From: Actinomadura graeca
GTDB lineage: Bacteria > Actinomycetota > Actinomycetes > Streptosporangiales > Streptosporangiaceae
Assembly (NCBI RefSeq): GCF_019175365.1
Contig: NZ_CP059572.1
Location: 7,812,001-7,876,000 of the forward strand
Reading direction: 5' to 3'
Length of the DNA stretch: 64,000 bases
A program made the translations under genes and the position numbers. Below the pieces are notes generated by a model. That model ran no database searches and was not told the origin of the DNA. It saw only the letters and a program-made list of their open reading frames with translations. Position 1 is the stretch's first letter. The number at the start of each line of letters is the position of its first letter. Shown here piece after piece: positions 37,911 through 54,357 of this stretch.

Positions 37911-38504
37911 GTGCTGAAAGTGGGACTCACCGGCGGGATCGGATCGGGCAAGAGCGAGGTGTCGGCGCTGCTGGCCGGGCACGGCGCCGTGGTCATCGAC
38001 GCCGACCGGATCGCCCGCGAGGTCGTCGAGCCCGGCACGCCCGGCCTCGCCGCCGTCGCCGCCGAGTTCGGCGAGGGCGTGCTGCTGCCGTCGGGGGCGC
38101 TCGACCGGGCGAAGGTCGGCTCGATCGTGTTCGCCGACCCCGAGCGGCTCAAGGCGCTGAACGCGATCGTCCACCCGCTGGTGGGGGAGCGGACGCGGGA
38201 GCTGATGGACGCCGCGCCCCCGGACGCCGTCGTCGTCTACGACGTCCCCCTCCTCGCCGAGAACGGCCTCGCCTCCATGTACGACGAGGTCGTGGTCGTC
38301 GAGGCGCCCGAGGAGACGCGGCTGCGCCGCCTGGCGTCCCGGCGGGGCATGACCGAGGAGGACGCCCGCGCCCGCATGGCGAACCAGGCCACCTCCGAGG
38401 AGCGCCGTGCCATCGCCACCCGCGTCATCGACAACTCCGGCACCCTGGACGACCTCAAGGCCCAGGTCGACGCCCTCTGGAAGGCCCTCACCGCCCGCGG
38501 ATGA
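37911..38504 (+). CDS. coaE: Dephospho-CoA kinase
   Basis: Last step of CoA synthesis: phosphorylation of the ribose 3'-OH of dephospho-CoA. The 197-residue protein has P-loop [13 protein letters not shown] (about 5-17), [13 protein letters not shown], the CoA-domain [13 protein letters not shown] and the LID arginines in [14 protein letters not shown] 37911 is preceded by TTAGGGT, suggesting leaderless translation. In Mycobacterium coaE lies next to uvrB; here an 11-kb block separates them. Confidence 0.97.
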
Positions 38505-38551
38505 CGTGTCGCGGGACGAGCCTGGGGCCGGAGACGCAGGCGCCGGCCTTG

Positions 38552-41500
38552 TCAGAAACTGCTTTCCATGGGGATCTGGCGGACCTCGGGAAGGTAGGTG
38601 TCGAGCTCGCCGGGTTCGAAGCGGCACATGCCGACGGCGTACCAGAACTCGGCGGTCGCGTCGCCCTCCCACTTGTAGCGGCCGTCGGGCGCGAGCGCGG
38701 CCCAGCCCCCGGCGAGTCCGAGGAGGGTCGCGCGCCGCTCGGGGGCGGACGGCCCGGCGACGTCCCAGAGGATGACGGCGCCGTCGTCGCCCGCGGTGGC
38801 GAGGAGGGCGCCGTCGGGGCTGAAGGCCGCGGACCAGACACGGCGGGTGTGGCCGGTGAGGGTGTGCAGGAGGGCACCGGTGGACGGGTCCCACAGCCGC
38901 ACCGCCATGTCGTCGCCGGCGCTGGCCAGCATGGTGCCGGACGGGTGGAACGCGGCCGTCCAGAGGCGGCCGGCGTGACCGGTGAGGACGTGCAGCGTCG
39001 CCCCCGTGCCGGGGTTCCAGAGCCGGACGGTGCCGTCGTTGCTGCTGCTGGCGAGGACGCCGCCGGACGGGGAGAACACCACCCGGTAGACGCGGGCGGT
39101 GTGGCCGCGGAGGGTGGCGGTGAGGGCGCCGGTCCCGGTGTCCCAGAGCCGGACGAGCCCGTCGTCGCAGCCCGTGGCGACGAGCGCGCCGGACGGGTGG
39201 AAGTCGATCGAGCGGACGCGGCCCTTGTGGGCGGCGAGGTTGACGATCTCCCGGCCGGTCGTCCAGTACCAGAGGCGGACGCTGTCGTCGTCGTTGGCGG
39301 TGGCGAGGACGTCGCCCTCGGGCGCGAACGCCTGCGCCCACACGTGGTCGGTCTCGACGTTCAGCTCGCGTTCGAACGCGCCTGTCCCGGCCTGCCACAG
39401 GTGGACGCCGCCGTCGTTGGTGGCGGTGGCGAGCTGGGAGTCGCGGGTGTTGAACAGCGCGGAGGTGAGGTTGTCGGCGACGCCGCGCAGCTCGCGGACG
39501 AGCCGTCCCGAGCGCGGGTCCCACAGCCGGACGAGGCCGTCGTTGCCGCTGGAGGCCAGCAGCCCGCCGTCGGGGCTGAACGCGACCCCGGTGACGCGGC
39601 GGCCGTGGCCGCGCAGCACGACGCGGCACTGCCCGGTCCCGGCGTCCCACAGCCGGGCGGTGCCGTCGTTGCTGCTGGTGGCGAGCTGCGCGCCGTCCGG
39701 GCGGAACGCGAACGGCCAGACGGCGCCGCGGTGCCCGGCGAGTTCGAGGCGCTGCCGCCCGGTCTCGTGGTCCCACAGCCGGACGGACCCGGCGCCGTCG
39801 GCGGTGGCGAGGCGGCTCCCGTCGGGGCTGAAGGCGGCCTGGTAGATGGCGCCGCCGTGCCCGGTGAGGGTGGCGCGGTGGACGCCGTCCTCCCACAGGC
39901 GCACGGACGCGTCGGTGTCGCCGGTGACGAGGAGGCGCCCGCCCGGGTGGAAGGCGATGGCGTAGACGCGTCCGGTGTGGCCGAGCAGCTCCTGCCGGAT
40001 CTCGCCGGTGCGGATGTCCCAGAGCCGGACGACGCCCGCCTCGTCCCCGGCGGCCAGCAGCGACCCGCCGGGGTGGAACACGGCGCGGAAGACGGCGCCG
40101 CGGTGGCCGGTCAGTTCGCGGCGGAGGGCGCCGGTGGCGAGGTCGAACACGCGGAGCGTCCCGCCCGCGTCGCCGGTGACCATCAGCGTTCCGGCGGGGT
40201 CGAAGACGGCCGTGTAGACGGGCGGGGTGTGGCCGCGCAGCTCGTGCAGGGGGGCGCCGGTGGCGGCGTCCCAGACGCGGATCGTCCCGTCGGCGGCGCC
40301 TGCGGCGACCAGGCCGGGGCCACCGGCGACGACGGGCCAGACGCCCTCGGGGTGCACGTCGAGGGCGTGCGCGCAATCCCCGGTGGCGAGGTCCCAGATG
40401 CGGACGGTGCCGTCGGCGGAGCCGCTGGCGAGCAGGTTGCCGTCGGCGTCGAACGCCACGGCGTAGGCGCGGTCGCGGTGTCCCTGGAGGGTGCGGATGG
40501 GCACTCCGGTGACCGCGTCGCAGATGAGGACGCCGCCGTCCTCGCTGCCGACGGCCAGGACGGATCCGCCGGGGCTGTAGGCGAGCGGCTGGGGGAGGCG
40601 GCTCGTCTGGAAGTGGAAGCCGTAGGGGACGCCGACCGCCGCGGGCGCGACCTGGATCTCGACGGGACGGCCCGGCGCGATCGCGGCCTCGCGCAGCTCG
40701 GGCGCCGCGGCGATCCGGCTCGGGAGCGCGGCGTCGACGAGCGCGGCGCGCGTCCAGCGGCTCCCCTCGACGGCGACGTCGCGGAGGTCGGCGCGGGCGA
40801 GCCGGGCGCGGGACAGGTCGGCGCCGCGCAGGTCGGCGCCCGTGAGCCGCGCCTCGTCGAGGCGGGCGCCGGCGAGGGAGGCGTCGCGCAGCACGGCCCG
40901 CGACAGGTTCGCGCCGACGAGCTGCGCGTCGGTGAGGTCGGCGCCGGTCAGGTCGACCTCCTGCAGGTCGCGGTAGGAGAGGTCCTCGCCCTGGAGGCGG
41001 GCGCCGCGCAGGTCGGTGTGGGCGGGGGTGCGCAGCCGCGTGGTGATCCGGATGGCGTTCGCGCGGGCGACGTCGCCGGCGCCAGGGTCGGCGAGCACCC
41101 CGTCCGCCCATTCCTGGCAGGCGCGGGTGTCGGCGAGGTCGCACAGGAAGTCGACGGTGAGCTGCGTCAGCGCGCGCCGCGCGAGCGCCGCCGGCGCGCC
41201 GGAACCGCGGAACGCGCCGGCGATGTGCCGGGCGACGAGCCATTCCATGACGGACGTGTGGATGAAGCCGAACAGGCCCTCGTTCGTCCGGACGAGCAGG
41301 CTCCCGGCGCCGACGGCGTGCGTCACCTGGTGGGGGGACAGGCGCCCGTCGGCGAGGCCGGTGAGGGCGTCGGCGACGTCGGTGAGCTCGGCCAGGCGCA
41401 GGAACTGCTCGTCGCCCTCCCACAGCCGCAGCGCGAGCGTGCCGACCGCCTCCCACATGTCCTCCTCCCGCAGCCCGGACGGGCCGCCCGCGGGCCGGAC

Positions 41501-44434
41501 CCGCTCGGCCTCGTGCGCCAGCCAGGACGACAGGATCTCCTGGTAGAGGTCGGCGGGGCTGACCGCGCGGCGGGCCTGCGCGACGGCGCGGAGCCGCTCC
41601 TCGGGCAGGTCGGCGATGAAGCTGAGCATCCGCGGGTTGGGCGCGAGGGCCAGCAGCTCCTCGACGCCCGACAGCAGGCCGAGCCGGTCGTCGGCGGCCT
41701 GCTCGTCGCCATACCGGTTCACCAGGTACGAGCGGACCTGCGCGGGCGTGAACTCCTCCAGCCCGAGCACGCGCCGGTGCGGCAGCACGCCGACCTTCTC
41801 GCCGAGCGCGGTCAGCACCTGCGCCTGCGACTTGAAGTGCTGGGTGCGGCTCGCCACGACGATCTTCGCCTTGTCCTGGGCGGCGCGCAGCAGCGTGTCG
41901 AGGTGGTCGGCGGCCTGGTCGTAGGTCACCCGGGTGACGAGCTCGTCGAACCCGTCGAACAGCAGGACGATGCGGCCCTGCCGCAGCATGTAGTGGAACG
42001 CCTTGAGGTCGATGAGCTCCTCGCCGTGGTTCGCGAGGTGCGCGGCGACCAGGCCGTCCACCGAGTGGGCCTTGTCGAGGGCGCGCAGCTCGATGAGGAT
42101 CGGGACGACGTGCGGCAGCTCCCCGGGGATCCGGCGGGCCAGCTCCCGCAGCGAGAACGTCTTGCCGCGCCCGAAGTCGCCGAGCAGCAGCAGGAACCGG
42201 CCGTGGTCGGCGGCCAGCAGCCGCAGCATCTCGCCGACGACGTCGTCATGGACCTCGCCGCCGTCGCCGGGGTCCGCGGCGTCGTCGGCGTCGGACGGGC
42301 CCGCCGGCCGGAACCGGTCCAGCTCCCGGTAGCGCTGCGGGACGTACAGCGACGGCGGGTACAGGTCGCCGGCCGACAGCCGGCCCGTCTGCGCGGTGAC
42401 GTACTCCGACAGGTCGAGGAGCCCCTGGAACTCGGTGAGGCTGCGCACCCGGATGCCCCGCCGGAGCGCGTCGTCGCGCAGGGACCGGGCCGGGGCCGGG
42501 CCGAGGTAGACGAGTTCCGACCCGTGGTCGGCGCCGTCGGCGTGCACGTGCCGGACGAACGCGTCCACGTCGTCCCCGGTGACCTGGCCGACGTGCGCGC
42601 CGATCCGGTACTGCCGGACGAAGCCGTCCTCCATGTGGGTGAGCAGCAGGTGCGGCGGGTCGGTCCGCCCGTCGGCGCGGGGCGGGGGGACGACGCGCCG
42701 GATCGTGGCGCGCTCGAAGCGTGTCTCGCACGCCTCGGTCAACCGGTCCAGCAGCCGCTCGGTCGGGCCGGGGGCCGGGTCGGCGCCGGCGGCCCCGGCA
42801 CCGGCCTCCGGCCCGGCGCCGAGCTGGGGCGCGGGTCCCGCGGGCGGTGCCTGACCTCGTGGCGGGGGGAACGCTCCGCCCGCGTCCGCCCAGGCCACGC
42901 CGAGACGCTCGGGCCCGCGCCGCGCCGCGTCCTCGGGCACCCACCGCTCCAGGCCGTCCCGCCGCAGCACGACGATCTGGTGGCGGCCCGGCCCCAGCGC
43001 GGGGACGCACGGGACGCCGGATCCGAGCAGCGGCATCGCGCGCAGCTCCGACTCCGCGCCCTGGAAGAACGCGTGGACGTGCCCGCTCAGCAGCGTCTCG
43101 ACGGTCTCGGGGTCGCGCAGCGCGCCCGGCTCGCCGGCGACGGGCGTGTGCTCGACGGCGCCGAGCCGCAGCCACCCCTCGTCCTCGAAGTGCCGCAGCC
43201 GCTCGTTGAACCACGCCGCCTGCGCCTGCCCGATCCGGCCGTGGCGGTCCTCCGGGCGGTGGGTCTGCGGCAGGGTGGAGTTGAGCCCGGCCACGACGAC
43301 CTTCAGGTCGGCGACGGGGAACAGGGTCCAGGGCTGGGCGCTGTCGAAGATGAGCGAGTCCAGCCCCTGGTAGAACTCCTTGAACAGGCCCGCGAAGTGC
43401 CGCCACTTCGGCCAGTAGGGCGGCTGCGGCTCGATGTCGTCGGCCTCGCAGCTGGAGAAGTACGCCTGGCAGGCCGCCCGCGTCACGTCGTGGGTGCCCG
43501 GGACGGCGATGACGCGCTGCGCCTCCAGGCCCAGCAGCGCCCGCAGGCTCGTCAGGAACGACAGCGCCTCGGTGAACTCCTTGCGGCTGCCGGAGTGGGT
43601 GAGGTTGCCGGTGACCACCAGCAGGTCGGGACGCGGGACGCCGGAGTCGGCCAGCCGCGTCACGTCGCTCCAGATGCGGTCCTGCAGCTCCGCGGCCGTG
43701 GTCGGCTCGCCGGGCTCGGCCAGCGTCCGCCCGAAGCGGGGCCCGGAGACGTGCAGGACGCTCACGTGCTCGCGCTCCAGGTCCGGGGAGCCCTCGCGGG
43801 CGGGGAACGCGGGAGCGGCCACGGGGGCGCGGCGGACGGGCCGTTCCCCGGCCGGGTCCGGCAGCCCGCCCCCGCCGTTCCCCCCCGTTCCGCCGCCGTT
43901 CCCGCCGCCCTCGACGTGGCCGACGAGCGGGGCGCGGTCCGCGCGGCCGGGGCCCCCGCCGGGGAAGCCTGGGCCGTTCACCGGCCGCGCGTGGCCCGCC
44001 AGGGCCTCCTGGATGCGCCGCATCAGCAGGCCGCGCGCCTCGTCCGGGTCGTCCACCCCCACCAGGTCCACGTAGGTGATCGTGGACAGCAGGCCGTCGA
44101 TCGGGCAGTCCTCGATCCGGACCGTGACCAGCTTGCGCGCCGGGTCGTCGGGGTCGGCGCGCAGCGCCGCCATCCACTCCAGCCGCCCGTACCGCGACCT
44201 GAGGTAGTTGCTCGACAGGACCGCCACGACGGCCTTCGCCTCCGACAGGCCCCGGTCCATGAAGTCGATGAAGTTGGTGCCGGGCACGAAGTCCCACGCC
44301 TGCATCATCGTCCGGTGCCCGGCGGCCTCCAGCTGCCACGCGATCCAGGACGCCCACCGTTCGTCCGCGGGCGAGTAGCTGATGAAGAAGTCGGTCGGGC
44401 GCTCCTGCCGGGTGTGGTCGCCGGGGGGTGTCAT
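38552..44434 (-). CDS. TIR / pseudo-phosphoesterase / NACHT / pentapeptide / WD40 STAND protein
   Basis: The 1960-residue protein reads, in order, as follows. TIR domain (14-148): FFISYSPADERWASWIAW, AWDFVPGTNF and the probable NADase Glu E86 in SRYGRLEW. Gly-rich linker (152-215). Calcineurin-like domain (about 223-490) with lost metal ligands. Unassigned alpha/beta domain (about 560-690). NACHT ATPase with Walker A GDFGRGKT (752-759), Walker B LLFDGFDE (D827) and sensor ASRTQHF. Pentapeptide repeats (1139-1240: ADLTDAQLVGANLSRAVLRD). Fifteen WD40 repeats (about 1270-1925). End: DGRYKWEGDATAEFWYAVG. It is soluble, with no TM. I infer ligand-triggered oligomerisation activating TIR, as in bacterial antiphage STANDs. 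It lies convergent to coaE and divergent from a permease gene. Confidence 0.93.
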   Translation of the reverse strand: MTPPGDHTRQERPTDFFISYSPADERWASWIAWQLEAAGHRTMMQAWDFVPGTNFIDFMDRGLSEAKAVVAVLSSNYLRSRYGRLEWMAALRADPDDPARKLVTVRIEDCPIDGLLSTITYVDLVGVDDPDEARGLLMRRIQEALAGHARPVNGPGFPGGGPGRADRAPLVGHVEGGGNGGGTGGNGGGGLPDPAGERPVRRAPVAAPAFPAREGSPDLEREHVSVLHVSGPRFGRTLAEPGEPTTAAELQDRIWSDVTRLADSGVPRPDLLVVTGNLTHSGSRKEFTEALSFLTSLRALLGLEAQRVIAVPGTHDVTRAACQAYFSSCEADDIEPQPPYWPKWRHFAGLFKEFYQGLDSLIFDSAQPWTLFPVADLKVVVAGLNSTLPQTHRPEDRHGRIGQAQAAWFNERLRHFEDEGWLRLGAVEHTPVAGEPGALRDPETVETLLSGHVHAFFQGAESELRAMPLLGSGVPCVPALGPGRHQIVVLRRDGLERWVPEDAARRGPERLGVAWADAGGAFPPPRGQAPPAGPAPQLGAGPEAGAGAAGADPAPGPTERLLDRLTEACETRFERATIRRVVPPPRADGRTDPPHLLLTHMEDGFVRQYRIGAHVGQVTGDDVDAFVRHVHADGADHGSELVYLGPAPARSLRDDALRRGIRVRSLTEFQGLLDLSEYVTAQTGRLSAGDLYPPSLYVPQRYRELDRFRPAGPSDADDAADPGDGGEVHDDVVGEMLRLLAADHGRFLLLLGDFGRGKTFSLRELARRIPGELPHVVPILIELRALDKAHSVDGLVAAHLANHGEELIDLKAFHYMLRQGRIVLLFDGFDELVTRVTYDQAADHLDTLLRAAQDKAKIVVASRTQHFKSQAQVLTALGEKVGVLPHRRVLGLEEFTPAQVRSYLVNRYGDEQAADDRLGLLSGVEELLALAPNPRMLSFIADLPEERLRAVAQARRAVSPADLYQEILSSWLAHEAERVRPAGGPSGLREEDMWEAVGTLALRLWEGDEQFLRLAELTDVADALTGLADGRLSPHQVTHAVGAGSLLVRTNEGLFGFIHTSVMEWLVARHIAGAFRGSGAPAALARRALTQLTVDFLCDLADTRACQEWADGVLADPGAGDVARANAIRITTRLRTPAHTDLRGARLQGEDLSYRDLQEVDLTGADLTDAQLVGANLSRAVLRDASLAGARLDEARLTGADLRGADLSRARLARADLRDVAVEGSRWTRAALVDAALPSRIAAAPELREAAIAPGRPVEIQVAPAAVGVPYGFHFQTSRLPQPLAYSPGGSVLAVGSEDGGVLICDAVTGVPIRTLQGHRDRAYAVAFDADGNLLASGSADGTVRIWDLATGDCAHALDVHPEGVWPVVAGGPGLVAAGAADGTIRVWDAATGAPLHELRGHTPPVYTAVFDPAGTLMVTGDAGGTLRVFDLATGALRRELTGHRGAVFRAVFHPGGSLLAAGDEAGVVRLWDIRTGEIRQELLGHTGRVYAIAFHPGGRLLVTGDTDASVRLWEDGVHRATLTGHGGAIYQAAFSPDGSRLATADGAGSVRLWDHETGRQRLELAGHRGAVWPFAFRPDGAQLATSSNDGTARLWDAGTGQCRVVLRGHGRRVTGVAFSPDGGLLASSGNDGLVRLWDPRSGRLVRELRGVADNLTSALFNTRDSQLATATNDGGVHLWQAGTGAFERELNVETDHVWAQAFAPEGDVLATANDDDSVRLWYWTTGREIVNLAAHKGRVRSIDFHPSGALVATGCDDGLVRLWDTGTGALTATLRGHTARVYRVVFSPSGGVLASSSNDGTVRLWNPGTGATLHVLTGHAGRLWTAAFHPSGTMLASAGDDMAVRLWDPSTGALLHTLTGHTRRVWSAAFSPDGALLATAGDDGAVILWDVAGPSAPERRATLLGLAGGWAALAPDGRYKWEGDATAEFWYAVGMCRFEPGELDTYLPEVRQIPMESSF

Positions 44435-44499
44435 ACGGCAAGTATCGCGTGCCCCGGCCGCGAAGAGGGTGTGCCCGCTCCCTATGGGATCATGTCGCG

Positions 44500-45723
44500 G
44501 TGCCGTCCGCGAACGCCTCCCTCCGCAGGGCCGCCCGCTCGCTGGGCGCCCTGGACTGGGTGCGCGCCGGGGTGCTCGCGCTCGGGCTGGTGTTCGTCGC
44601 CACGGGACTGCTCCCGGCGGAGACCGCGCGGTCGAGCGTCGGGCGCATCGCGCCGCTCCTGCTCTTCCTGTTCAGCGTCATCGTGCTGGCGGAGCTGACC
44701 AAGGAGGCGGGGGTCTTCGACGCCATCGCCCAGCGGATGGCGCGCGCGGGACGCGGCAACTATGCGGCGCTGTTCCTGATGTGCGTGGCGTTCGCGTCCG
44801 TCATCACCGTGTTCCTGAACCTGGACACGACCGCCGTGCTGCTCACGCCGGTGATGCTGGCGCTGGCGGCGCGCGCGCGGATCGCGGCGCTCCCGCTCGC
44901 GATGACCACGGTGTGGCTCGCGAACACGGCGAGCCTGCTCCTGCCGGTGTCCAACCTGACCAACCTGCTCGCCGCCGACCGCGTCGCCCTGGAGACGCCC
45001 GCGTTCGCCGCCCGGATGTGGTTCCCGCAGGTGGCCGTCCTGGCGGTCACGATGGCGCTGCTGTGGGTGTTCTTCTGGCGGCGGGGGATGCGCGGGGCCG
45101 AGTCCTACGACCTGCCCGAGGTCGCCCCCGTGCGGGACAAGGTCCTGTTCTCCGCGACGGGCATCGCCTGCCTGCTGTTCATCGGGGCGATCCTCGCGGG
45201 CGTGCACACCGGCGTCCAGCTCGGCGTCGCGGCGGCGGTGGCCGCCGTCCTGGCCGTGGCCGCGTTCGCCGTGCGGGACCGGTCGGCGCTGCGGCCCGCC
45301 CTGATCCCCTGGCAGCTCATGGTGTTCGTGACGGGCCTGTTCCTGGTGGTGCCCACGCTCGAACGCTACGGGCTGGACGAGGTGATGCGCTCCCTCGTCG
45401 GCGGCGACGACGGTGTGGCGGGCGCGCTGAGGGCGGGCTTCGCCGGCGCGGGCCTGTCGAACGTCCTGAACAACCTGCCCGCCTACGTCGCGGGGGAGTC
45501 GGCCGTCCCCGTCTCCAACAGGGACCAGCTCCTCTCCCTGCTGATCGGGACGAACGTGGGCCCCGTCATCACGCCGTGGGGGTCGCTGGCCACGCTGCTG
45601 TGGTTCGAATGGTGCCGCCGGTGGGACGTGCGCGTGCCGATGCGCAAGTTCGTCCTGACCGGCACCGTGCTTGCCGTGCTGGGCTGCGCGGCCACGGTCG
45701 GCGCCCTCCTGGCGACGGGCTGA
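44500..45723 (+). CDS. ArsB/NhaD-superfamily ion permease
   Basis: The 407-residue protein has about eleven membrane helices. Signature regions are FLNLDTTAVLLTPVMLALAARA (about 106-127), NTASLLLPVSNLTNLLA (about 146-162) and the repeat-related GTNVGPVITPWGSLATLLWFEWC near residue 350. This matches ArsB-like arsenite permeases and related SLC13/NhaD transporters; no arsR or arsC gene is adjacent, so the substrate is open. GTG 44500 gives the first helix at about residue 15. It is divergent from the TIR-NACHT gene with a 65-bp gap. Confidence 0.87.
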   Translation: MPSANASLRRAARSLGALDWVRAGVLALGLVFVATGLLPAETARSSVGRIAPLLLFLFSVIVLAELTKEAGVFDAIAQRMARAGRGNYAALFLMCVAFASVITVFLNLDTTAVLLTPVMLALAARARIAALPLAMTTVWLANTASLLLPVSNLTNLLAADRVALETPAFAARMWFPQVAVLAVTMALLWVFFWRRGMRGAESYDLPEVAPVRDKVLFSATGIACLLFIGAILAGVHTGVQLGVAAAVAAVLAVAAFAVRDRSALRPALIPWQLMVFVTGLFLVVPTLERYGLDEVMRSLVGGDDGVAGALRAGFAGAGLSNVLNNLPAYVAGESAVPVSNRDQLLSLLIGTNVGPVITPWGSLATLLWFEWCRRWDVRVPMRKFVLTGTVLAVLGCAATVGALLATG

Positions 45724-45764: not shown

Positions 45765-46694
45765 TCACCGGGCGAGGGGGGTGCGGCGGGTGCGGCCGTC
45801 CCCGCCCGCGCCGCCGACCTCGCCCAGGACCGCGCCGGTCGTCTCCAGCAGGCGGTCCAGCAGCTCCGGCCGGGCCGCCACGAACCCCAGCTCCGACGGC
45901 GTGCGGTCGATGCCCAGCTCGTAGGGGCGTCCGTCCAGGCGGCGCAGCTCCACGCCCGCCTCGGCGGCCAGCAGCGCGCCGGGGGGCAGGTCCACGATCT
46001 CGGGCAGGTACCCGGCGATCCCGTCGATGTCACCGCGCGCCAGCATCACCCACGCCACCAGCGGCGCCCACAGCTGGAGCATCCGCGAGCAGCGCATCTC
46101 CAGCGCCGAGCGGAGCGCGAACGCCACGTGATCGTCGGACCTGACCTGGTGCCCCTGCGTCCAGGCCAGCACCGGGTTCCTCTCCCGCCCCGGACGCGGG
46201 CGCACCGCGAGCGTCAGCGGTGAGCCGTCCGGGCCCAGCGCACCCTCACCGCGCACCGCCGACCACGTCCGTCCCGACACCGGGTCGTGGACGACCCCCA
46301 AGACGGGGACGGCGCGCGCGCACAACGCGAGACCGACCGCGTACACCGGCATCCCGATCGCGACGTTGTTGGTGCCGTCCAGCGGATCGACCAGCCACAC
46401 CAGGTCCTTGCCCGACCCGTCCGCGTCCGCGGCCCCGTCGAGCACCCCCGACTCCTCGGCGATGATCCGGTGCCCCGGGTACGCGGCGCGCAGCCGTCCC
46501 AGGATCAGCTCCTCGGCGGCGGTGTCCAGGGCGGTCACCACGTCCCCGCCGTCGCCCTTGGGGCGGGCCTCCACGGGACCGCCCGTCCCGGCCCGGAGCA
46601 GGGCCCCGGCGGCCTCCGCGGCGCCGACCGCCACCCGCCGGGCCTCGGCGAGATCGACCGGAGGGGCCGGTGACGGGGAGCCGGATCTCATCAT
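45765..46694 (-). CDS. Inositol monophosphatase family protein
   Basis: This 309-residue Mg2+-dependent phosphatase has GGDVVTALDTAAEE, the metal Glu in HRIIAEESG and the core motif VWLVDPLDGTNNVAIG (D-P-L-D-G-T). It lacks the full second signature: the canonical WDxAAG is replaced by LWAPLVAWVMLARGDIDGI (no WD.AG), so its substrate may differ from inositol phosphate. Candidates are inositol-1-phosphate, histidinol phosphate, PAP or fructose bisphosphate. Start at ATG 46694; a second ATG follows directly. Confidence 0.85.
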   Translation of the reverse strand: MMRSGSPSPAPPVDLAEARRVAVGAAEAAGALLRAGTGGPVEARPKGDGGDVVTALDTAAEELILGRLRAAYPGHRIIAEESGVLDGAADADGSGKDLVWLVDPLDGTNNVAIGMPVYAVGLALCARAVPVLGVVHDPVSGRTWSAVRGEGALGPDGSPLTLAVRPRPGRERNPVLAWTQGHQVRSDDHVAFALRSALEMRCSRMLQLWAPLVAWVMLARGDIDGIAGYLPEIVDLPPGALLAAEAGVELRRLDGRPYELGIDRTPSELGFVAARPELLDRLLETTGAVLGEVGGAGGDGRTRRTPLAR

Positions 46695-47521: not shown

Positions 47522-48535
47522 TCACTCGTACGGGTCCTTGGCCCGCAGCGCCTTCCTGATGATCTCGATGACGTCCCGGTCGGTGTAGCCCTGGGCGAGG
47601 TCGATGCCGATCACCTTGAAGAGCTCGCGGACCTCCTCGACGGTGGGCTCGTCGTCCAGCGGCGCCAGCCTCGCCTGCTCGACCGGGACGCGCCGCGCCT
47701 GGTCCAGGCTGGTCTGCAGCTCGGCGCTCACCCAGCTGTAGTAGAACTTCGTGCTGTCGATGACCAGCGCCTCGCCGCGCGGGTCGTCGCGCGTGACGAC
47801 CACCCGCGACGACGACAGGTCGTAGCGCAGCGTCGTCATCGTCCGCGCCAGGCCGATGTCGATGTCGAGCATCCCGAACCGCTGCTTGTGCCAGCAGGCC
47901 GCCAGCAGCGTGGCGTACGCCTCCTTGCGGGTGCGCTCCACCGTCCACGGCTCGCCGGTGGCGTCCGGGCCGTCGGCCACCGAGCGGCGGTGCCGCGCGT
48001 ACGCCTCGCAGACCTCCACGTCCGTCGGGTCGATGATCTCCAGGCGGAACAGCAGCGTCCGCCGCTCCCGGCGGGCCGCCGCCACGCACTCGGGCAGCGT
48101 CTTGGCGCGGATATAGGTCCCGGTGCCGCCCTTGAAGAACCAGCGGTCGGTGTCGCGGCGCGCCTCCGCCAGGACGTGCGCCACCTGCGCGCCGCCGATG
48201 ACGCGGACGACGGTGGTCTCGTCCAGGGCTCGCTTGGTGTCGGACAGGACGCCCTCGAACGCCTCGATGTGGGTCAGCTTGCCGCTCAGGTCGTCCAGCG
48301 TGGCCGACGAGGCCCGCAGGGTGTCGCGCACCTCCGCCTCCACGGGGATGCGCCGCCCCCGGTCGCGCAGCACCGACGTCGCCAGCAGGCCGATGACGGC
48401 GAGGATCGCGCTGTTGGTGACGTCGTCCTCGTGCGGCAGGTCCACCCCGACGCCGAGCACCGCGACGGCGATGGCCAGGACCAGCGCGATGAAGGCGTCG
48501 GCGTTCTTCCCGAGCCAGGTGGCGAAACGGGTCAT
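47522..48535 (-). CDS. Two-TM protein with conserved cytoplasmic domain, unknown function
   Basis: I do not recognise a named family. The 337-residue protein has two N-terminal TM helices (about 13-31 and 40-57) separated by a short acidic loop, then a coiled segment (SATLDDLSGKLTHIEAFEGVL). A soluble domain (about 105-250) follows with WFFKGGTGTYIRAKTLPEC, FRLEIIDPTDVEVCEAYA and AACWHKQRFGMLDIDIGLA, and a helical end. No HKD or nucleotide-binding motif is seen. Two TMs plus a sensor-like domain resembles membrane effectors of immune systems, but that is speculation. Co-directional with the cupin gene. Confidence 0.7.
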   Translation of the reverse strand: MTRFATWLGKNADAFIALVLAIAVAVLGVGVDLPHEDDVTNSAILAVIGLLATSVLRDRGRRIPVEAEVRDTLRASSATLDDLSGKLTHIEAFEGVLSDTKRALDETTVVRVIGGAQVAHVLAEARRDTDRWFFKGGTGTYIRAKTLPECVAAARRERRTLLFRLEIIDPTDVEVCEAYARHRRSVADGPDATGEPWTVERTRKEAYATLLAACWHKQRFGMLDIDIGLARTMTTLRYDLSSSRVVVTRDDPRGEALVIDSTKFYYSWVSAELQTSLDQARRVPVEQARLAPLDDEPTVEEVRELFKVIGIDLAQGYTDRDVIEIIRKALRAKDPYE

Positions 48536-48736
48536 TGTATGCGGTTACCCCAGTCCTTGTCGGCGCCGTCATCGTAACCACAGCACCGGGAAGGCGGCCA
48601 CCGTGCGCAAGCCCCTGCAGGTCAGGCGTTCCGGGCTCCCCGGGACGACCTGGGGCGGGCCGGGCGCGGGGTGCCGCGCATCACCTTCTTTTCCCAAAAC
48701 GACCTTGGTCCCCGCCCTGCCCATAGACTCGGTCGC

Positions 48737-49891
48737 ATGCAGCTGCGGGGCTGGTGGTCGGCGGCGTGGCCGGCGCGGCGTTCACGCGCGCTCGACATCA
48801 CCCTCGCGGTGTCGCTGGCGACCGTGGACGGCATCGCCCTGTGGTTCGCCGACCAAAAGTTCTGGCTTCCGCCGCCCGTCGTGTCGGCGTGCAGCGTGAT
48901 CATGGGCCTGGCGCTGGTCTTCCGCCGCCGCCACCCGGTCCGGCTCACCGTCTTCGCGATGGCCTTCGCGACCGTCACGGGCGCGGGCATGTTCACCGGG
49001 CTCGTCATCCTCTACTCGCTGGCCGCCTACGCCCCGTCCCGGCGCACCGCGTGGGGGCTGGCGGCGATCGGGTTCGCGGTCGCCCTCGCGTTCCCGGGGC
49101 CCACCGCGAGCGACCAGCCGCTCCTGGCCCAGGTCGTCTTCGGCGTCGCCTTCACCGCCGTCCCCGTCCTCCTGGGCCTCTATATGGGGGCGCGCAAGCA
49201 ACTGCTCGCTTCCCTCCAGGAGAGGGCGGCGCGGCTGGAGCGCGAACAGCACCTCCTCGCGGAGCGCGCGCGGGGCGAGGAACGTACCCGCATCGCCCGC
49301 GAGATGCACGACGTGGTCGCCAACCGCATCAGCGTCATGGTCGTCCACGCGGGCGCGCTCCGGGCCATCGCCGTCCGCGACCCCGCCCGCGCCGCCGAGA
49401 CCGCGGGGGTGATCGGCGACATGGGCCGCCAGGCGCTGGAGGAGCTCCGCCACGTCATCGGCGTGCTGCGGCAGGGCGAGGAGGCACTGCCGCAGGAGGC
49501 GGTGACCCTCGCCCACGTCCGCGAGCTCGTCGGCCAGTCCGGCGCCGCCGGGCTCCGCGTCGACCTGGCGATCCGCGGCGAGGAGCGTCCCATGCCCACC
49601 GCCGTCGGGCGGACGGTCTACCGGCTCGTCCAGGAGGCCCTCACCAACGTGCACAAGCACGCGGGCGCCGCCGACACCCGGATCGACCTCGGGCTCCTCC
49701 CCGAGGCCGTCGAGGTCGAGATCGCCAACTGCGCCCCCACCGCCCCGCCCGACCACGGCCTGCCGAGCGGCGGCAACGGCCTGGTGGGCCTGCGCGAGCG
49801 GGTCACCGCCCTCGGCGGCAGCTTCGAGGCCGGGCCGGGCGCCGACGGCGGCTACGCGGTCCGCGCGCGGCTCCCGCTTCCCGCCTCCTGA
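48737..49891 (+). CDS. Sensor histidine kinase, NarL/DesK type, orphan
   Basis: The 384-residue protein has four to five TM helices in residues 20-150 and a short coiled coil ([19 protein letters not shown]). The HisKA_3 dimerisation box is [24 protein letters not shown] (phospho-His in REMHD), and an HATPase_c domain has [18 protein letters not shown] (N-box) and [17 protein letters not shown] (G-boxes). TAGACT 7 nt before ATG 48737 suggests a leaderless mRNA. No response regulator is adjacent, which is unusual for this family. uvrB follows 80 bp downstream. Confidence 0.93.
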
Positions 49892-49971
49892 CCTGCGGAA
49901 ATATTGGGGCGTCCGCGATTGTCGTAGTCCCTGCATACAGTGGGGGAGTAGCCAGAGGAGGGGGAGCCGGC

Positions 49972-52089
<2,118 letters not shown>

Positions 52090-53457: not shown

Positions 53458-54357
53458 TCACGGCCTCAGCTTGAAGAAGGCCGCGTTGCGCTCCTCGTGG
53501 TAGGCGAGATCGTCCTCGTCGTGCTGGACGCCGCGCCGCCTGGCGAGCTCGAAGTAGGCGGCCTCCCGGCGCAGCCGGTGCCGGATGAGCTGGGCCACGG
53601 TCTCGTCGTCCATGGGGCCCGCGGTGCCGCCCGCCCGGTGGTAGTCGGCGACGAAGCGGCGCCGCTGCTCCTGCGTCCCGGCGGGCGCGTCCGTCCATTC
53701 CAGGGCCGCCGCGGCGACCTCGTATTCGGGGGCCGCGACGAAGCACTCGTCCCAGTCCAGGACGGCGACGAGGCGGCCGCCGCGGGCGAGGGTGTTGGCG
53801 GAGTAGTAGTCGCCGTGGACGACCTGCCGCGCGGTCCCCCGGCCGTGGAAGGCCGCCAGCCACCGGTCGAGGGCGGGGTCGGCGAGCCCCGGCACGTCCT
53901 CGGGCGGCTTGCCGTCCATGCCGGTCGCCGCGAAGGACGCCGCCGGGCGCGGCGGGGGGCGGTACGACGCCAGCGCGCGGTGCAGCCGGGCGAGGACTCC
54001 GGCGGCCAGCGTCCGCATGCCGGGATCGTCCTCGTCGGGCCACTCGCCCTCGACGTGCGGCCACAGCGACAGGGGGCGGCCGTCCACCCGGACGACCGTG
54101 GCGCCGTCCCGGGCGCGCAGCGGCGCCACGGCCTCGGGCATCCGCGCCGCCGCGTGCGCGGCGACCGCGTGGCACCACTCGGTCTCGGCCTCGCCCCGCC
54201 AGGCGGGGCTGACGCGCACCACCACGTCGCCGAGGCGGTAGGCGGCCGACTCCTCGCCGCCGAACAGGCGCTCGGCGGGGCCGCCCGCCGGGTGGCCCCA
54301 CGACCGCCGGACCGCCTCCCGCATCGGGCCGGTCAGCGGGGTCTCGGCGTAGATCAT
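53458..54357 (-). CDS. APH-family phosphotransferase
   Basis: The 299-residue protein has an aminoglycoside-phosphotransferase/homoserine-kinase-II fold. The catalytic loop is VVHGDYYSANTLARGGRLVAVLDWDE (Brenner HGDYxxxN and the DxD metal site as LDWDE). The N-lobe has AYRLGDVVVRVSP. It may phosphorylate a small amine, sugar or antibiotic; family members include resistance enzymes and housekeeping kinases, and the sequence does not decide. It lies 51 bp downstream of the GNAT gene on the same strand. Confidence 0.87.
   Translation of the reverse strand: MIYAETPLTGPMREAVRRSWGHPAGGPAERLFGGEESAAYRLGDVVVRVSPAWRGEAETEWCHAVAAHAAARMPEAVAPLRARDGATVVRVDGRPLSLWPHVEGEWPDEDDPGMRTLAAGVLARLHRALASYRPPPRPAASFAATGMDGKPPEDVPGLADPALDRWLAAFHGRGTARQVVHGDYYSANTLARGGRLVAVLDWDECFVAAPEYEVAAAALEWTDAPAGTQEQRRRFVADYHRAGGTAGPMDDETVAQLIRHRLRREAAYFELARRRGVQHDEDDLAYHEERNAAFFKLRP

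Follow-up and report, generated by a model that had tools for sequence, protein, structure and literature searches.

The window analysed here, a stretch of 64,000 nucleotides from Actinomadura graeca, carries on its minus strand an open reading frame of 1960 codons, which runs from an ATG at 44434 to 38552. The giant gene, its domains and a short element upstream of its start are the following:

38552..44434, minus strand: whole gene, encoding a TIR-pseudoMPE-NA-iREase3-NACHT-pentapeptide-WD40 protein of 1960 aa (ORF, Pfam domains)
44441..44446, minus strand: conserved hexamer GATACT, −12 to −7 of the ATG (upstream alignment of loci)
44033..44389, minus strand: TIR domain, residues 16–134, with S74..Y77..S80..E86-W87 (TIR_2, E = 4.9e-36)
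42881..43777, minus strand: apparent pseudo-metallophosphoesterase (MPE), residues 220–518 (Metallophos, PF00149)
42410..42760, minus strand: NA-iREase3, a NACHT-associated inactive restriction-endonuclease fold, residues 559–675 (PF22739, E = 2.2e-38)
41720..42196, minus strand: NACHT ATPase, residues 747–905 (PF05729, E = 1.1e-9, 38.8 bits against a cut-off of 26.7)
40778..41002, minus strand: pentapeptide repeats, residues ~1145–1219 (PF00805, E = 5.4e-20)
38759..40585, minus strand: 15 WD40 repeats, residues 1284–1892 (WD40, E = 4.6e-130, and repeat-end motifs)

In the frame of this gene, the GC content by codon position is 77, 53 and 98%. An overlapping plus-strand ORF of 2065 aa (38501–44698) spans the entire giant gene and looks like a high-GC shadow; it was rejected as a gene on the basis of the GC frame and of the lack of any Pfam family at E ≤ 1. 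The start at 44434 is supported by the upstream alignment, because the hexamer RATACT ends 6 nt before the ATG in all 24 genus loci, window included (22 GATACT and 2 AATACT). In other genera, the hexamer was found at the exact position in 4 of 18 loci and one base off in 4 more; in L085 and L086, also from other genera, the start of the giant gene was not found in this comparison. The remaining intergenic region is poorly conserved, save for one further patch (CATGATCCCA or a close variant) by the presumed start of the divergent ArsB gene. The spacing between hexamer and ATG is that expected of a leaderless promoter, and we take −12 to −7 to be the position of its putative −10 box; we infer from the sequence that the giant gene is probably expressed from such a promoter.

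The original prediction, made from the letters alone, had listed a TIR domain, a calcineurin-like domain, a NACHT ATPase, pentapeptide repeats and 15 WD40 repeats, and this list was borne out by the Pfam profiles and by the repeat count (14 repeat ends by regular expression plus one, near residue 1425, by eye). The catalytic glutamate of TIR NADases lies in the motif S..Y..S.....E. E86, already pointed out as a plausible NADase residue, stands at this position, making the domain a predicted NADase; E86, Y77, S80 and W87 are each present in 121 of 121 aligned proteins (the query and 120 listed of 737 homologues). The TIR fold matches the TIR domains of MyD88 and SARM1, and residues 1–150 match only TIR_2 and TIR in Pfam at E ≤ 1, DUF4062 being absent. 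A low-complexity linker separates the TIR domain from the calcineurin-like fold. In the NACHT domain, Walker A (GDFGRGKT, residues 752–759) and Walker B (VLLFDGFDE, residues 823–831) are intact, as had been stated, and their columns are at least 90% conserved in the homologue alignment. The predicted model of residues 1230–1960 shows a mean pLDDT of 90.3 and 63 strands from model residue 55 on, and the WD40 part probably forms two propellers; this region resembles Apaf-1 by sequence (7.4e-57, over the WD40 part) and by fold. The STAND order of effector, NTPase and sensor is present as TIR, NACHT and pentapeptide plus WD40, and the architecture supports the division of roles that had been proposed for these parts.

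The block at residues 560–690, previously left unassigned, corresponds to Pfam NA-iREase3: residues 559–675 belong to this family with 132 bits against a cut-off of 27, the match being the single one in its own genome, with none in 14 control genomes. Here, TIR and the apparent pseudo-MPE stand upstream of it. The combination of domains had also been considered unusual and perhaps a distinct class. However, residues 1–720 match at least 737 proteins at E ≤ 1e-3 (a lower bound, with 7983 candidates scored), and 117 of the 120 listed homologues measure 1851–2047 aa; the exceptions P0063, P0095 and P0103 fall below this range, and the names of some others mark them as partial. Homologues of similar length come from Actinomadura, Spirillospora, Actinocorallia, Streptosporangium, Sphaerisporangium, Microbispora, Nonomuraea and others, and the nearest named relative among the matches listed is Actinomadura macra (90% over residues 1–720). 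Judged by homologue length, the architecture is widespread among relatives. This is a real, well-conserved protein of the already known kind of NACHT STAND receptors, that is, a variant of these rather than a new class.

The module between TIR and NA-iREase3 had been described as an extra phosphoesterase. It has a calcineurin-like fold, with an in-frame PF00149 match at E = 4.1e-6 and 27.8 bits against a cut-off of 21.5. Metallophosphoesterases bind their metals through the motifs D-x-H/Q, GDxxD, GNHD and GHxH. These are replaced, in register, by GPR, GNLT, GTHD (for GNHD) and QGA in the query, in which GPRFGR, with near-invariant arginines, stands where the metal Asp/His is expected. Active relatives carry SDxQFG/GDLAE/GNHD/HHN/HGH. 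The string SGHVH at 450–454 was tried as metal motif V and rejected, the true motif being aligned at 456–460, where active relatives read LLLHGH and the query AFFQGA. Among 149 TIR-bearing proteins, the first metal Asp survives in one and Asp231 and Asn314 never occur together, whereas, of the 54 proteins in which no TIR was detected, 29 keep Asp231, Asp277 and Asn314. The active-site residues are, hence, gone in nearly all TIR-bearing proteins, and the module appears to be a conserved, apparently dead pseudoenzyme rather than an additional enzyme. Rv0805 and CpdA, which we take to be class III cyclic-nucleotide phosphodiesterases, differ from it in this respect, the module having no metal ligands.

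A tree was built on 48 rows kept of 164 usable. All 20 TIR rows fell in one clade of 28 rows (SH-aLRT 98), together with 8 rows in which no TIR was detected (6 are called 'partial' by their source); taken at face value, these 8 rows mean that the TIR label needs 7 changes. In the sister clade, which includes P0155 and P0157, the Asp, Asp, Asn set is kept in 11 of 18 rows, and P0164, P0165, P0166 and P0169–P0172 are among those with dead or altered sites. A repeated, independent loss of the phosphoesterase site at each gain of a TIR was also considered; since the 20 TIR rows share a single clade, the association of TIR and dead site is essentially one event. A TIR-bearing relative, P0192, shows an intermediate site (SDLRFS, GDL, GDHD, HHN, HGG) and is possibly a snapshot of site decay. 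In other homologues (P0151, P0153, P0155, P0156, P0158, P0159 and P0161–P0163), Trypsin_2 precedes MPE-NA-iREase3-NACHT(-WD40) with an intact phosphoesterase site, and such chains may possibly hold two effectors. The proteins with a trypsin-like domain or an N-terminal MPE ahead of NA-iREase3-NACHT-WD40 (for example P0155, P0157 and P0183) share the MPE-iREase-NACHT core of the giant protein, but have intact metal motifs and no TIR.

The giant protein has a match in 50 of the 65 genomes sampled from the genus, in most of them a single one. Two complementary pieces on different contigs were found in G004, G013, G037 and G048, fragments in G054, and a weak second match in G046; in G064 (L069, G064:C1 6722000-6741000) the gene was matched as two overlapping pieces in different open frames, which suggests a frame break or a sequencing error. 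The match in G032 (L033) is a paralogue of 36% in a different place; this one and L092 are distant paralogues (36–41%), lying away from coaE and with the linked genes not in the stretch, and the order in L092 is MPE, iREase, NACHT, pentapeptide, WD40. In the family sample, 42 of 150 genomes match at E ≤ 0.001, 35 of them through close orthologues, each with an E of at most 2e-130, and the other 7 more weakly (E of 4.6e-75 or worse). Of the 197 genomes sampled across the class, 11 gave a match at E ≤ 1e-30, with 4 belonging to the gene's own family (own genome included) and 7 lying outside it; identities of at least 59% occur only within the family, and the 7 outside genomes reach 52% at best. 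The gene is dispensable and not universal, because no match at E ≤ 0.001 was obtained in 15 of the 65 genomes from the genus and in 108 of the 150 from the family.

The giant gene lies in a neighbourhood of polA, rpsA, coaE and uvrB, and its immediate surroundings are:

37911..38504, plus strand: coaE, left flank of the fixed site (PF01121)
44500..45723, plus strand: ArsB/CitMHS-type membrane transporter, divergent (PF02040, PF03600); the ORF opens at 44428 and the start is probably near 44500
45765..46694, minus strand: inositol-monophosphatase-family protein (InosP), linked in most loci (PF00459)
47522..48535, minus strand: linked two-helix membrane protein, 337 aa (hydropathy, alignment of 32)
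48671..49891, plus strand: histidine kinase (HK), flanking the block on the right (follows coaE as the next match in 14 of 15 empty loci)

The kinase is adjoined by uvrB, which lies within the ORF 48754–52089 (plus strand) from about residue 420; the listed GTG start of this ORF is probably far upstream of the true uvrB gene. An APH-family phosphotransferase (53458–54357, minus strand, PF01636) adjoins a GNAT acetyltransferase.

The order rpsA-EEP-GNAT-coaE-giant gene-ArsB-(InosP)-337-aa protein-HK was found, within the limits of each stretch, in 19 of 20 loci, the remaining one being the G032 paralogue; InosP is missing in L030–L032. L069–L072 agree with the order coaE-giant gene-ArsB (4 of 4), which therefore holds in all 23 intact orthologous loci of the genus (19 + 4); in L057 coaE stands beside the gene and then the contig ends. 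Sixteen genus genomes are without an orthologue, and in one of them (G022) the coaE match is also missing. In 14 of the 15 empty loci, the kinase directly follows coaE among the matched genes, with a gap of 41 to 1804 bp, while in one (L066, G032) ArsB is retained between the two. The ArsB orthologue is missing from 15 of the 16 genomes, where paralogues reach at most 38%. In other genera, ArsB adjoins the gene in 17 of 20 loci (L089 and L092 lack it, and L076 breaks off inside the gene) and coaE was seen in 16 of 20 locus stretches (none in L085, L086, L088 and L092); in L076 the kinase sits between coaE and the giant gene.

In a FastTree of five proteins, the genus genomes without an orthologue (13 of 16 placed) occupy six places. 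The simplest reading of these sequences would be about six separate losses of the giant gene, and losses are favoured over gains because most orthologues of other genera share the locus. The transporter and the phosphatase may be mere neighbours, ArsB being missing in L089 and InosP in L030–L032. Moreover, the four genes are neighbours that a single deletion would remove together, and their linkage and shared loss may mean no more than this.

The 337-aa protein has two N-terminal hydrophobic helices, as judged by hydropathy, and a strongly conserved remainder with an invariant GGTG...R..TLP in the alignment of 32 members. The protein itself had no Pfam match at E ≤ 10; its 32 members matched 25 Pfam families at E ≤ 1, none common to more than 4 of them. 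In the family sample (apparently the same 150 genomes for both tallies), all 35 genomes with a close orthologue of the giant gene carry it, against 8 of the 115 that lack one and none of the 7 whose only match is a weaker one; the co-occurrence gives a Fisher p of 8e-27, with genome relatedness ignored. No match was found in the 16 genus genomes without an orthologue (E ≤ 1e-10; 2 positive controls matched). In other genera, it lies within the stretch in 15 of 20 loci; contig ends truncate L076, L079 and L085, the gene of L084 sits immediately beyond the stretch, and L092 is the 41% paralogue without these neighbours. Homologues also occur in Micromonospora records. Where the giant gene is missing, the 337-aa protein stands beside coaE in L099–L101, beside ArsB and coaE in L104, and with InosP in L102, L103 and L106, while L105 shows none of these neighbours. 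The dependence is one-way: the giant gene comes with the 337-aa protein, not the reverse.

This partnership is compatible with a signalling TIR, whose NAD+-derived messenger would be sensed by the two-helix membrane protein, the actual killer; such a division of labour, between a messenger maker and a separate killer, is known from Thoeris. The constant company of the membrane protein and its build of two helices plus a conserved domain speak for it, but 8 of the 43 genomes that carry the partner lack the giant gene, the partner sometimes lying directly beside coaE, and Pfam recognised no messenger-binding domain in it. We regard a signalling role of this kind as improbable.

The dN/dS values of seven close pairs, calculated by Nei-Gojobori and to be taken as rough domain averages given third positions of 98% GC, were 0.02–0.15 for TIR, 0.08–0.23 for MPE, 0.05–0.29 for iREase, 0.17–0.30 for NACHT and 0.14–0.31 for WD40, compared to 0.14–0.46 for coaE. 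Every main domain is, on average, under purifying selection. Since the MPE values stay at 0.08–0.23 in all seven pairs, the dead domain appears to be under constraint. The WD40 averages do not indicate a hypervariable or diversifying sensor.

Purifying selection and a core locus would also suit a regulator of development or housekeeping in filamentous actinomycetes, acting in hyphal programmed death or as a scaffold, with no phage role and perhaps no NADase activity; the confinement of the closest relatives to the family points the same way. On the other hand, the invariant catalytic glutamate of the TIR argues for catalysis, and about six losses show dispensability, and we consider such a regulator distinctly unlikely.

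Antiphage defence had been the default reading of the original prediction. In its present form, it would describe an ordinary bNACHT/TIR-STAND protein that became chromosomally fixed: a phage product would bind the propellers and the TIR would deplete NAD+, leading to abortive infection. The architecture fits the tripartite scheme of bNACHT proteins as given in the excerpts of PMC12169576 (N-terminal effector, central NACHT, C-terminal sensor), repeated loss suits a costly defence gene, and there are weak NCBIfam matches to the anti-phage DS9_1 phosphoesterase (56.9 bits, cut-off 420) and to the EruA NACHT (30.6 bits, cut-off 1000). Against it stands the housekeeping locus, which is fixed, with one copy in most genomes. 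No phage record matched the giant gene, and the single matching 'plasmid' record is 11.85 Mb long; horizontal mobility was rejected on these grounds together with the fixed coaE site, and inheritance of the locus looks vertical. As for the enrichment of defence genes that the original prediction had expected around a defence gene, the neighbourhood is largely free of it: the neighbours are polA, rpsA, coaE and uvrB, and a PADLOC scan of 10 window proteins, with coaE, rpsA and GNAT left out, gave only a cross-match of DNA polymerase I. The giant protein itself had no full-length PADLOC match, bSEFIR included; 10 families matched at E ≤ 0.1, the best being bSEFIR with 31 bits over residues 14–78 only (positions 39–106 of 412). 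The WD40 part, moreover, has no average sign of diversification. Altogether, we judge antiphage defence to be somewhat unlikely.

The reading that we prefer, and to which we give about an even chance, is that of a resident, chromosomally fixed, NLR-like (Apaf-1-like) suicide switch that would cleave NAD+; a gated NADase on the Apaf-1/NLR plan is suggested because TIR, NACHT and WD40 occur together. The protein would be made from the leaderless promoter, and its two WD40 propellers would fold onto the NACHT ATPase and keep it inactive, as in Apaf-1. A conserved intracellular trigger would bind the propellers and the pentapeptide stem, whereupon NACHT would exchange nucleotide and oligomerise, the TIR domains would gather and E86 would cleave NAD+, stopping or killing the hyphal compartment. 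The two domains between TIR and NACHT, phosphoesterase and REase fold, both taken as inactive, would serve as spacer, coupling or ligand-sensing modules and not as effectors, and the two-helix membrane protein would be a likely partner, as anchor, restraint or sensor. The sequences directly show the anatomy, the state of the motifs, the fixed locus, the linkage and, on average, purifying selection; NAD+ cleavage, oligomerisation, autoinhibition, the trigger, the death outcome and the role of the partner are what we infer from this plan. A fuller version, to which we would attach only a small probability, joins these elements: a vertically inherited resident NLR whose ancestral phosphodiesterase effector died when the TIR was added ahead of it, its emptied pocket being re-lined by the GPRFGR arginines as a ligand-sensing or locking element, with the two-helix protein as obligate partner, forming an apoptosome-like module of filamentous actinomycetes.

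Several known systems resemble parts of this plan. The Apaf-1 apoptosome likewise has a STAND ATPase followed by WD40 propellers, but the giant protein carries a TIR rather than a CARD, extra internal domains, and NACHT where Apaf-1 has NB-ARC. The bNACHT and bacterial NLR-related antiphage proteins described in the excerpts of PMC12169576 share the tripartite plan; unlike them, the giant protein carries a TIR as its putative effector, encloses two apparently inactive enzyme folds, probably has two propellers and sits at a fixed core locus. A gated NADase plan is proposed for animal TEP1/NWD1 in the excerpts of PMC13174449, with a TIR-like NADase beside NACHT with WD40 propellers in TEP1/NWD1; the TIR-like domain of these proteins and of the Swarozyc NADases is DUF4062, whereas the giant protein has TIR_2 in its place and differs in the internal module. 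PMC10907252, as excerpted, describes DGR-diversified NACHT sensors of multicellular bacteria, one of them with a cAMP-phosphodiesterase domain, which, like the giant protein, joins a metallophosphoesterase and NACHT in a single chain; there, a C-lectin sensor is made hypervariable by a retroelement, while the WD40 part here is conserved, with no such signal. TIR and calcineurin-like effectors in the conflict systems of multicellular bacteria appear in excerpts of PMC7159879 and PMC8195603. Roles beyond plain defence have a precedent, because an NLR-like system is required for the release of gene transfer agents according to PMC13236601. In the limited collection of partial texts searched, no description of this architecture or locus was found.

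Bacterial NLR-like proteins are discussed mostly as accessory antiphage genes. In this family, an NLR-like gene, whose plan resembles that of animal and plant cell-death receptors, keeps one site, from coaE to the kinase-uvrB side, across much of the family, in a fixed chromosomal place and not in a mobile defence island. What is surprising is the combination of an apparently dead phosphoesterase under constraint, a fixed core locus and a one-way tie to a membrane protein lacking a recognised family. Natural controls are available in those relatives whose phosphoesterase is intact and in which no TIR was detected. The finding opens the questions of how an effector domain turns into a regulatory pseudoenzyme, and of whether resident cell-death receptors akin to the apoptosome exist in bacteria.
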